60,862 nt of DNA from Globomyces pollinis-pini. Taxonomy: Eukaryota > Chytridiomycota > Chytridiomycetes > Rhizophydiales > Globomycetaceae. The stretch spans positions 1 through 60,862 of the forward strand of contig MU621179.1 of the NCBI GenBank assembly GCA_025399215.1, given 5' to 3'. Positions within the stretch are counted from its first letter, which is position 1; every line of letters begins with the position of its first letter. The notes under the pieces are model-generated. The model ran no database searches. It was not told where the DNA came from and was given only the letters and a program-made list of their open reading frames with translations. Positions 12,905 to 56,973 of the stretch are shown here, piece by piece. A program made the position numbers and the translations under genes.

Positions 12905-13702
12905 TCACCACCACCATACGCGAATATAAAAGACCAAAATCACTATTGTCAAAACAATTATAGGTGGTCCATATTTTTGGTACAATGCTTGCCAATTTAA
13001 ATGTCTAGAATCTTTCAAATATTTCTTTGATTCTGAAGAAAGGTTCTGAGAAGCGTTTGACATCCCTGCAATGTTAATGATCCTTGAAATAATTACTTTC
13101 CAATTGCTCGCCACGTCCCAACACTTCTTGAATGTTTTTTGTCATGATACGTGTCACGTCGCCCAAGTCTTCATTCAATTTTTGTAAATTACGTTGAGTT
13201 CTATAATTCACCAATTAAATAATCATATTACCTATAAATAAGATTAAAGTATTTATAGTTACCTTGCATCTTTATAATTCTTTTTGGTTTTTTGAATGAA
13301 GTTATCAAATTTAACAAATGCATATGGTCTAGCAACTCGTTGCATTTCATGTCCATATAAAGCATGGAATTCAGTTTGTAATTCTTCCAAGAAGCCAAAA
13401 GCCAATTTTTTAGGGTATGACTTTTCACAAACACATAGATAGCAAACACCGAATTCAATCATGTAACTAATTGATAAGAAAGAGACGATTAAATTACTGA
13501 AATACAAATGGGTGAGAGTCAATTGAACCTATACAGTTAGTAAGGCTAATCTACATTTCTGTTCCGATTCTTTTGATAATCTTTTCATTAAATGTTTTGC
13601 TTGATTTGTATATTCGGTTAAACCGTGAGAATCTTCGTCATCCATACTAGCAGCTAATGGAAGTCCATCAGCAACTCTGGCAATAAGTGTTGACTTTACC
13701 AT
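12905..13702 (-). CDS. SEC22: SEC22 R-SNARE of ER-Golgi traffic
   Basis: Exons: 13555-13702, 13498-13528, 13263-13466, 13097-13200, 12905-13065 (215 aa, the usual SEC22 length). The longin domain is intact once two introns are removed (FHYMIEFGVCYLC, SYPKKLAF). The R-SNARE motif has its zero-layer Arg near VLGRGEQLE and ends ESKKYLKDSRHLNWQALYQK. A C-terminal membrane anchor follows. The first intron (13529-13554, 26 nt) contains a perfect TTACTAAC branch site. The third intron is 62 nt and consists of two back-to-back 31-nt GT...AG units (see findings). The start lies 59 bp from the divergent RING gene. Confidence 0.93.
13201..13262 (-). other. tandem double intron (2 x 31 nt) in SEC22
   Basis: The only way to join ...NYKDA(R) to TQRNLQKL in frame is to remove 62 nt. 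This stretch is two complete GT...AG units, 13232-13262 and 13201-13231, each 31 nt, each starting GTAA and ending TATAG, with no base between them (TATAG|GTAAT). Confidence 0.7.
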
Positions 13703-22782: not shown

Positions 22783-24038
22783 TCTAAAGACTATTGAAGA
22801 TGTCACAAAAACTCCTAGAAATTATATGTTTACAAAAAACTTTACCACCGATAATACCACAAGTTCTGGTGATAAATTCTATGAAACCTCTGCGTAGTTG
22901 AGTAATTCTAACCAAAATTGGCTCAATGTTGTATTTGATGAATATTCCTGGAAGAGCATCTGGATTGTTTGGATCTACTGGATGTGAAAACTCGGTAACA
23001 GCATATTGATTGGTTACAATCAAACCTTGTCTTTAATTTCTCGTATATTACCTTCAAAGAACGTGACTGCTTTATCAACATATATGGTAGGAACGATTGC
23101 AAGGAAATATTGAAAGTTATCAAAGTGCGTGACTGCATTTACATGTGTCATATCAAGTGGGTTCATTAAGCCTGGATATCTCTTTCCAAATGAAAATTCA
23201 TCAATTCGATGAGTGAAATTTAGGGCTATGTATCAGAAAATGATGCTTTACCATCATGAGGAGCGTGTAACCCTCTATATCCATGTCCAATAGCTGTGAT
23301 ATGAAACATTCCTTCTACTTTGGCAACTGAAAATGATCCTTTAACTCTACAAGCATTCAATTTTCCTGGCAATAAGTCAAGAGATTATGATACCATCTAC
23401 TCTAAGATTGTCCACATGAGAGCCTGGTTGTGGTCTATCTTTGTTTTTATTAAACGCTTGAGTATCCAGATGTCTAACGTTAAAAATTAAAAGTTACGAA
23501 GATAAATCCATGACATTATTGGTATGATAAGTTGCTGGAGTGATTTCAAGTAATTTTCCAACTGGAACAGATGATCTAGCAACATCCAGTACATCAAACC
23601 GTAAATCTAAAAAATTTAGGAAAGGAACAATGTACATTTGCATTCCATTGCCACTACAATTATAAGCACGTTAAACTTACCCGTCATATCGATATTAATA
23701 TCCAGGTTATTCTCTCCAGCAGTTTGGTCTACTAAGAACCTAAATAATGAATAATCAATCATATCCATACTCATAGTCTGAATGCAGTCCTCTCCATCTT
23801 GCCAATTCAGACCTAACATAAACATTTATAATCTATCACCTTGGAATTAGAATTCAAGTCTTATACCTATGCGTCAAAACTATCAAGTGAGTTACCATAA
23901 TAAAATAGTAAGAATCACCATCATTATCACCGAAACCATACCCCCTTGCTCAGTTGGTTGCGTAAGCGAACTATCAATTTTTGGAAAAGCATCTAGTTTT
24001 ACAAAGACTGATGTCCTTCGTCGATAAGCAACAGACAT
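22747..24038 (-). CDS. ERV41: ERV41/ERGIC2 COPII-vesicle cargo receptor
   Basis: Ten exons: 23896-24038, 23771-23812, 23681-23739, 23636-23653 (18 nt), 23498-23606, 23394-23473, 23252-23365, 23052-23225, 22846-23025, 22747-22814 (328 aa). The order is a cytosolic FVKLDAFPKIDSSLTQPTEQ, TM1, the lumenal INIDMTVAMECKYLRFDVLD, ACRVKGSFSVAKVEGMFHIT, LNFTHRIDEFSFG, PGIFIKYNIEPI and TM2. These match ERGIC2/Erv41 step by step. Erv41 with Erv46 retrieves ER residents from the early Golgi. Introns are 24-31 nt except the first, an 83-nt stretch made of three GT...AG units. The C-terminal tail overlaps a direct repeat and may be altered. Confidence 0.9.
23813..23895 (-). other. tandem triple intron (29+27+27 nt) in ERV41
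   Basis: Joining TM1 (...VILTILLW) to SELARWRGLHSDYE in frame removes 83 nt. They split without remainder into 23867-23895 (GTAACT...CATAG), 23840-23866 (GTATAA...CCAAG) and 23813-23839 (GTGATA...GTTAG). The middle unit contains TTCTAATT as a branch-site candidate. Confidence 0.65.
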
Positions 24039-45361: not shown

Positions 45362-45434
45362 GCTGGCGTGGCTTAGTTGGTAAAGCGTCAGTCTCATAAT
45401 CTGAAGATCATGAGTTCGAGCCTCATCGCGAGCA
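45362..45434 (+). tRNA. tRNA-Met(CAT), elongator type
   Basis: A 73-nt cloverleaf: acceptor GCTGGCG/CGCGAGC with one G-G mismatch at the fourth pair, D stem GCTT/AAGC, anticodon loop CTCATAA, T stem ATGAG/CTCAT with loop TTCGAGC, discriminator A. The anticodon arm TCAGTCTCATAATCTGA is the same as in yeast elongator tRNA-Met. No intron. It is followed by a run of eight T. Confidence 0.9.
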
Positions 45435-45436
45435 CA

Positions 45437-56156: not shown

Positions 56157-56973
56157 ATGAAAAGTATTCTGAAGAGGAAGAAGTCTGGTCAGAAGGATGA
56201 AGATACTGCTAATAGAGGGTATGGTATGATGCTAATGATAGTATTCAATGGGATGAGGATAATTTGATGATTACGGAGGTTCTTGCCTTTTGTTCCTAAT
56301 TATACTAGGTTGCCAATTTTATCACTAATTAAAAGGTTTATTATATCAACCTAATTATAAGGTCAGTAATATGTTACTGATAATTATAGGCTGGAAAAGA
56401 TTCGACTATGAAGATTATGGAACCAAAAACTCCATATATTCATTACAATGCAGATTTAGACGAGTTTAATGGAACTAGTGGTAATTGCTATTGTTTTTTT
56501 ATCTTTCAGGTATTACCCCGTTTGAATTGGCTTGTGCTATCAATAATACAACCCTAGATCGTGCTGATTCGCTTAATTCAAATATTATGTCTGAAGGTTC
56601 TGACTGGGAATCTGGCGAGGAGAAATTAAATGCTCTTGGTAATGAACAAATAGATTAATTCTTTAGAATTAGGTAAATAACTCGTATTTTTGACCTTTTT
56701 AGGTTTGCTTATTGTTGTAATTGAACATTATTAGAAGAGGAAAGAGTCAAGAGACAAAAGTTCAACAAACTGAGGAGTCAGCACTATAATATGAAGAAAG
56801 TATTAGCGCACGCCAAAGAACAACTAGAGAATGAAGAGGCAGATGAAGATTTCAATGTACTTTCTATTACCTTACGATAGAACCCTGATAAACATGATGT
56901 ATCTATGCCCATGACTCAATCACACTCCTCAGTTTTTTCTGAAGTTGAAGAAACCAATCACCGCATGCCGTGA
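56157..56973 (+). CDS. GLC8: protein phosphatase 1 inhibitor-2 (GLC8/PPP1R2)
   Basis: Exons 56157-56218, 56242-56278, 56390-56480, 56510-56638, 56735-56856, 56881-56973 (177 aa). Inhibitor-2 elements appear in order: MKSILKRKKSG (the SILK/KGILK docking site), IQWDEDNLMITE, STMKIMEPKTPYIHY (the PxTPY site that GSK3 phosphorylates in homologues), and VKRQKFNKLRSQHYNMKKVL (the HYNE-like PP1 active-site helix). It modulates PP1. Two of its five introns are long for this genome (111 and 96 nt) and are made of four and three GT...AG units. Another intron is 23 nt. Confidence 0.9.
56279..56389 (+). other. tandem quadruple intron (30+27+26+28 nt) in GLC8
   Basis: Between ...NLMITE and AGKDSTMK lie four GT...AG units with zero bases between: 56279-56308, 56309-56335, 56336-56361, 56362-56389. 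The first three share a CTAATTA word just before their AG (CTAATTATACTAG, CTAATTAAAAG, CTAATTATAAG); the fourth ends GATAATTATAG. Keeping unit 1 or 2 gives an in-frame stop; keeping 3 or 4 shifts frame. Confidence 0.75.
56639..56734 (+). other. tandem triple intron (34+30+32 nt) in GLC8
   Basis: Between ...KLNALE and EERVKRQ the 96 nt split into 56639-56672 (GTAATG...AATTAG), 56673-56702 (GTAAAT...TTTTAG) and 56703-56734 (GTTTGC...TATTAG), joined AG|GT each time. Confidence 0.7.

Follow-up and report, generated by a model that had tools for sequence, protein, structure and literature searches.

Intron-sized GT...AG units abutting without exons in GLC8 and other genes of Globomyces pollinis-pini, best explained as tandem intron arrays

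Is the 111-nt stretch that interrupts the GLC8 gene of Globomyces pollinis-pini a single intron, or a row of four complete introns with no exon between them? The window, i.e., the whole stretch of DNA analysed (60,862 nucleotides, contig MU621179.1, forward strand), is contig C90 of the 18.55-Mb, 459-contig genome. The sequence-only reading of this window had proposed that the conserved protein forces the removal of 111 nt, and that these divide exactly into 30, 27, 26 and 28 nt, each unit beginning with GT and ending with AG. The partition proved exact in all its coordinates, and the features of the gene are as follows.

56157..56278, + strand: 5' coding part of GLC8/IPP-2 (protein phosphatase inhibitor 2), up to ...DNLMITE; contains one ordinary 23-nt intron; Pfam IPP-2, E 9.9e-20
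56279..56308, + strand: array unit 1, 30 nt, GTTCTT...CTAAT (56296-56300)...TAG
56309..56335, + strand: array unit 2, 27 nt, GTTGCC...CTAAT (56325-56329)...AAG
56336..56361, + strand: array unit 3, 26 nt, GTTTAT...CTAAT (56351-56355)...AAG
56362..56389, + strand: array unit 4, 28 nt, GTCAGT...CTGATAAT...TAG
56390..56480, + strand: exon 3' of the array, starting AGKDSTMKIMEPKTPYIHYNADLDEFNG; the next intron opens with GTAATTGC at 56481
56673..56734, + strand: second GLC8 array, two units (30+32 nt), between ...LNALEL and EEERVKRQKFNKLRSQHYNMK; placed by the gene model, with loose support from a less conserved junction alignment

Without the 111 nt the protein reads ...QWDEDNLMITE|AGKDSTMKIMEPKTPYIHY..., and the junction MITE|AGKDSTMKI is gap-free in 12 of the 12 IPP-2 homologues found, which bears out the demand for loss of the entire stretch. 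Solved inhibitor 2 (2o8a) gives a weak match (E 4e-4), in which small gaps occur at the junction. A Globomyces GLC8 protein is not among the 12 public homologues, and the public gene set consequently does not confirm this gene. Retention of units would be costly: of the 15 possible patterns, 14 lead to a stop codon in the retained part or in the next 60 nt, and the 15th to a frameshift. A branch-like motif is present in every unit, namely CTAATTA near the 3' end of units 1-3 and CTGATAATTA in unit 4. The CTAATTA common to three units had been taken as a hint of duplication; the shared motif is there, while the hint is weak, the units being 0.50-0.71 identical to one another against a random median of 0.56 and a 95th percentile of 0.67. 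The expectation of one AG|GT per about 300 nt was set too high, since on the + strand one AGGT is found per 423 nt, which is rarer. The judgement that the partition is unlikely to arise by chance holds: when the 111 nt were shuffled 3,000 times with dinucleotides preserved, a complete partition into GT...AG units of 22-38 nt arose in 2 cases, and in none did every unit score as an intron. The four-unit partition, with no exon between the units, is therefore confirmed as real, and it is one case of a pattern that extends over the genome.

The extent of this pattern was assessed with purpose-built gene models in which exons of zero length were allowed. Training of the semi-Markov gene finder began with the window and continued with the window plus 20 unselected 10-kb stretches (C1-C20:20001-30000), 261 kb in total. 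Within these 261 kb, 654 introns were modelled, 631 of them 22-38 nt long and 23 longer. The short introns mostly carry a GTA[AT] donor and a [CT]TRA[TC] branch motif a few bases before the acceptor, which is mostly TAG; extrapolation from the sample gives about 43,000 short single introns genome-wide. The same sample holds 14 modelled arrays, which scales to roughly 1,000 genome-wide (Poisson 95% range 544-1,670), and the median array unit measures 29 nt versus 28 nt for single introns.

The gene model places 187 introns and four arrays in the window (13201-13262, 23813-23895, 56279-56389 and 56673-56734). At 56279 the model alone kept two of the four units, and the other two rest on homology. 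The two arrays outside GLC8 are the following.

13201..13262, - strand: SEC22, two-unit array (31+31 nt), between KKNYKDA and RTQRNLQKL; gap-free versus SEC22b (8hr0, 2nup)
23813..23895, - strand: ERV41/ERGIC-type gene, three-unit array (29+27+27 nt), between MMVILTILL and WSELARW; Pfam ERGIC_N match across the junction, 85 residues on 85 profile positions

The earlier count, by which five of seven introns longer than 36 nt divide in this way, is reproduced in part: four arrays are recovered, the figure of five in seven only partly so. Three undivided introns above 38 nt were also modelled in the window, two of them apparently bridging adjacent genes and the third being of unclear status. The window further contains a tRNA-Met gene (CAT anticodon) at 45362-45435, the sole tRNA gene that ARAGORN finds there with the bacterial code setting.

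Homology at the junction is available for eight of the 14 sample arrays, those in GLC8, SEC22, the ERV41-type gene, CLK, TFB2, PMM, EXO70 and WNK. Among the remaining six, the second GLC8 array is loosely supported, and two arrays in L018 as well as those in SEC14, RAB3GAP1 and GPC1 are predicted by the gene model. In the CLK kinase, removal of five units (25+27+29+28+29 nt) restores FLHDLG|LIHTDLKPEN, gap-free versus its homologue; the gene model had cut this array to three of the five units, and the full array was recovered with homology. The 90-nt TFB2 array is gap-free versus solved TFB2 (7o4i) and five of the eight other species aligned; the exceptions are two proteins with one extra residue exactly at the junction and one without the stretch. 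Along its full length, the spliced TFB2 model shows 100% identity to a public Globomyces pollinis-pini protein, the next-nearest proteins coming from chytrids. The PMM junction is gap-free versus the best match, 5ue7, the second match (6i5x) having three extra residues there, and for EXO70 the homologue alignment shows a two-residue gap a few residues downstream of the junction.

Longer arrays were obtained from a pattern search, and their loci are therefore selected for the pattern rather than being a sample. The longest is that of PHYHD1 (C12:42085-42369), whose ten units (29+28+28+28+28+27+29+29+28+31 = 285 nt) lie between VLQSMLIFK and QPDIGGEV, gap-free versus PHYHD1 2opw. An eleventh PHYHD1 unit suggested by the gene model was rejected because its 27 nt code for VLQSMLIFK. 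Mgm1 carries six units, with the junction EFPQL|GLGKIT gap-free versus 6rzt, and a trehalose-6-phosphate synthase-like gene carries four, with IWIQDYHF|MLLPALL gap-free versus 5dxf. In EFCAB9 (L032, contig C264), seven units add up to 185 nt, and GSVEFDE|FYLLMCIL is gap-free in 14 of the 14 aligned proteins, out of 33 found. ATG3, with eight units of which the first (38 nt) is uncertain, and an MBOAT gene, with seven, are assigned to their families by Pfam only. In the public Globomyces gene models, the predicted boundaries of the 90-nt TFB2 array and of the 185-nt EFCAB9 array are reproduced exactly.

Several further observations were made at these loci. In the EFCAB9 exon after the array, the gene model kept a 24-nt intron, which would read LPYNLIKG and is absent from the public protein; its length is a multiple of three and it is stop-free, and such tiny in-frame introns are easily missed. 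A run of seven TAG|GTA boundaries occupies C102:3738-3929 (L036); the gene model found no gene around the pattern at L036 or at L001. One small contig has arrays at three places within about 4.2 kb (C451:3089-7286). A nearly identical 36-nt string, CTAATATTAGATGAGGTTG...TTTTTGATCTAAT, recurs at C14:120041, C24:23809 and C61:14105, and represents a dispersed repeat or a gene family.

The earlier reading had also proposed to look for an excess of evenly spaced AG|GT sites in long introns across the genome. On both strands, 372 TAGGTA...TAGGTA pairs fall at periods of 25-37 nt, compared with 30 at 10-22 nt and 26 at 38-50 nt, each class comprising 13 periods; single introns flanked by TAG and GTA would account for about 14 pairs at intron spacing, and the genome-wide enrichment there is about 12-fold. 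Triples with two intron-sized gaps number 102, against 8 in the reversed-pattern control. For pairs, this control (ATGGAT) gave 248 at 25-37 nt, 262 at 10-22 nt, 206 at 38-50 nt and 410 at two-unit spacing, and it stood at 64 versus 86 matches in a further pattern search of the genome, so that only the triples clearly exceed it. Taking into account that ATGGAT is high at every spacing, it behaves as a hexamer of other composition and use; being unmatched in composition, it was considered less fair a control than the other spacings of TAGGTA itself, and trusting it would shrink the excess. In the 261-kb sample, the spacing histogram of plain AGGT pairs has no clear peak at 25-34 nt and is uninformative.

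The shuffling applied to GLC8 was extended to other arrays, with 3,000 shuffles each: next to the 2 for GLC8, partitions arose in 0 for CLK, 1 for Mgm1, 3 for the ERV41-type gene, 3 for GPC1 and 11 for TFB2. Five two-unit arrays tested singly were partitioned in 72-160 of 3,000 shuffles, each being weak alone. For the tested arrays of at least three units, these counts (0-11 of 3,000) and the genome-wide spacing lead us to reject chance partition of a long intron.

The units also carry internal intron signals. In 100 units defined by their boundaries, taken from the listed TAGGTA pairs at 25-37 nt and chosen by boundaries and spacing alone, YTRAY lies 5-13 nt from the end in 46, compared with 16% of shuffles and 3 of 25 control stretches. 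The corresponding figure for modelled introns, 361 of 631, is inflated, as the model itself uses the motif. On branch score, these 100 units fall slightly short of the modelled introns (p=0.004). In GT...AG ends, branch motif distance and size relative to the introns of this genome, the units agree with the U2-type features tested. An ordinary long intron would have no internal split into intron-sized GT...AG units, and arrays of at least three units do have one.

The assumption that only introns of about 22-36 nt can be spliced in this organism, from which removal one unit at a time had been deduced, is contradicted. In the WNK kinase, a 73-nt intron adjoins a 28-nt unit, contains no AG|GT and no later internal AG, and its flanks are gap-free versus WNK3, which makes it the best-supported long intron of the sample. 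Further long single introns of 57-116 nt and more were placed by the model alone, and many of the longest among the 23 modelled long introns are doubtful. Collectively, these introns indicate that length alone does not force unit-by-unit removal. A rarer second class of single introns of about 57-116 nt was noted at L011, L015, L018, L022, L023, L028 and others. In 13 long introns, picked from the 22 outside arrays by a GTA start and a length of at most 120 nt, a choice that favours the donor type counted, GTA[AT]G[AT] donors occur in 6 versus 72 of 600 short introns, and CTAAC near the intron end in 4 versus 28 of 600.

The central idea of the sequence-only reading, a tandem array of complete introns of about 28 nt separated by zero-length exons, is strongly supported and generalises beyond GLC8. 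The arrays exist, they interrupt conserved coding sequence, they are enriched at intron spacing, and some of their units are tandem duplicates. It is highly probable that their best explanation is that of tandem intron arrays, in which two to at least ten complete minimal U2-type introns abut as AG|GT and are removed unit-wise. Each unit, of about 23-38 nt, would come with a GT donor and an AG acceptor of its own and, in most cases, with a branch motif that can be recognised; all units would reside at one intron position, and each would be recognised by intron definition and excised as a separate intron. Whichever unit is lost, the next GT would be brought up to the exon or AG in front of it, or that join would be left intact; the order of removal should consequently be immaterial, and the final mRNA the same. 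As two spliceosomes can hardly occupy abutting units at once, removal should be sequential. The sequence data fit such a stepwise process.

This proposal must be weighed against one-step removal, in which the whole array leaves as one ordinary intron of 55-300 nt bounded by the first GT and the last AG, and the internal AG|GT sites are relics of tandem duplication. The 73-nt WNK intron and the longer modelled introns of the same genome make one-step removal physically possible for small arrays, and the public gene models do join the outer array ends, as any model would. However, relic sites should decay, and this is not what is found at two-unit spacing. In the first 100 of the 191 TAGGTA pairs at this distance, 56 have TAG|GTA in between, 19 have another AG|GT that splits the pair into 22-38 + 22-38 nt, and 25 have none. 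An internal AG|GT is thus kept in 75 of the 100 listed pairs, and the 25 without it compare with about 22 expected by chance, a figure derived from 23 control rows that cover 26 periods on the same contigs. Pairs of array origin with a lost middle site would therefore number about 3, with a wide error, up to roughly a fifth being compatible by this estimate. The unit interiors have mostly diverged: 22 of the 29 listed neighbouring unit pairs have an identity of at most 0.65, under the random 95th percentile (0.67; median 0.56). The persistence of internal sites while interiors diverge is most simply explained by need, each unit keeping its donor and acceptor, and the internal splice sites thus appear to be retained. 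If unrelated introns had been gained recently, their sites would be equally intact, and retention would then show no selection. Moreover, branch motifs persist in units chosen by boundaries alone, and the long-intron donor type is missing from the first donors of the sample arrays (GTA[AT]G[AT] in 0 of 14, versus 6 of 13 selected long introns), a count that by itself does not separate arrays from short introns (72 of 600). One-step removal is accordingly considered unlikely.

Two other explanations are far less probable still. AT-rich minisatellites inside introns, with a period that happens to equal the intron length and with only the outer sites mattering, would account for the close repeats within PHYHD1 units 1-6 (0.68-1.0 alike) and Mgm1 units 1-4 (0.81-1.0). 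Nevertheless, the 22 of 29 neighbouring pairs at background identity are at odds with satellite-like homogeneity, the 25-37-nt period stands out genome-wide over both shorter and longer ones, and the register is GT...AG, partly by construction of the search, yet also in the unselected sample; such an origin is hardly credible. Equally improbable is a regulated or alternative splicing device, in which partial removal of the array would tune expression through nonsense-mediated decay. The cost of every missed unit to the GLC8 transcript agrees with it, but the arrays sit in many unrelated genes and nothing points to regulation.

Regarding the origin of the arrays, some units bear the marks of duplication. 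PHYHD1 units 2 and 3 are identical, as are Mgm1 units 2 and 4; beyond the similar early units, the later units of both arrays are less alike, with the exception of PHYHD1 unit 8, which is 0.83 like unit 1. The EFCAB9 array holds a duplicated two-intron dimer. These identical or similar units show that whole introns were duplicated in tandem, exactly from GT to AG. Duplication is clear in these three genes, but not in GLC8, for which it had been suggested, or in most of the listed neighbours. Where the exon before an intron ends in AG, or the exon after it starts with GT, the intron would be flanked by microhomology, through which slippage could duplicate exactly one intron. Arrays would then expand, their units diverging while selection keeps each one spliceable. 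As a second route, unrelated introns may have been gained serially at AG|GT. The AGGT model of tandem duplication with AGGT microhomology presents a likeness to the arrays. The exon flanks are suggestive in this respect: 8 of 14 sample arrays follow an exon that ends in AG, versus 168 of 600 single introns (p=0.03); when a GT at the start of the downstream exon is counted as well, the figures become 10 of 14 and 212 of 600 (p=0.009). The test covers 14 arrays, and this feature was the strongest among several inspected, uncorrected. An introner origin was rejected within the material compared: in 731 introns and units (631 from the sample, 100 boundary-defined), 34 pairs share 12-mers across loci versus 35 in shuffles, and there are no cross-locus families.

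Taken together, these findings lead to a broader proposal that we regard as somewhat favoured: the minimal intron may act as a tandem repeat unit that multiplies in place by slippage across AG|GT microhomology, yielding arrays of up to ten or more units that would be invisible in the mRNA and in which every unit would be kept by selection since each is spliced on its own. If this is true, the roughly one thousand arrays of this genome would offer a natural assay for intron birth and for sequential splicing repeated at a single site. If units are removed singly, one exon-exon junction would see as many as ten rounds of spliceosome action, with only introns of about 28 nt in between, and neither exon definition nor a cryptic exon would be needed, unlike in the recursive splicing described in flies. 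Identical, similar and fully diverged neighbours occur together, and the genome seems to catch introns multiplying in place, which would make the origin and cost of introns directly testable. Gene finders with a minimum exon length should mis-model array genes; even the model allowing zero-length exons broke on GLC8 and the CLK kinase until homology was used.

Abutting spliceosomal introns in arrays were not found described in the open-licence PMC literature, searched mainly at the level of titles and the starts of abstracts. Recursive splicing at ratchet points (zero-nucleotide exons) in Drosophila shares with the arrays the juxtaposed AG|GT, and its steps regenerate a donor. Ratchet points are located within long introns, where a cryptic exon is reportedly required (PMC8605326). 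The arrays have the zero-length exon at AG|GT without the long intron or the downstream cryptic exon: as wholes they measure 55-285 nt, with units of about 28 nt and up to ten in a row, and nothing but the next unit could take the place of a cryptic exon. Fungal stwintrons are likewise complex intervening sequences in a fungus that are removed by consecutive splicing reactions, one intron being nested in a splice element of another (PMC9024468, PMC12403724, PMC7138796). In contrast, array units are complete and side by side rather than nested; no unit interrupts the donor, branch element or acceptor of another, and each retains GT and AG ends of its own and, in many cases, a recognisable branch motif.

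In human UBC, tandem AGGT sites that can act as 5' as well as 3' splice sites separate coding monomers, with a variable coding output (PMC10809524). The array sequences permit the same dual use of AGGT; unlike those of UBC, however, these sites bound non-coding introns, and a fixed mature coding sequence is expected. In intron gain by tandem genomic duplication (PMC4974935), the duplication creates a new intron, whereas arrays would multiply an existing whole intron in place. Introners and introner-like elements also multiply introns within a genome, inserting their own copies into many genes (PMC9860276); a family of similar introns at many loci, which defines them, is not seen among the 731 introns and units compared. 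The arrays are thus akin to recursive or consecutive splicing, and there is a fair chance that they deserve a class of their own.
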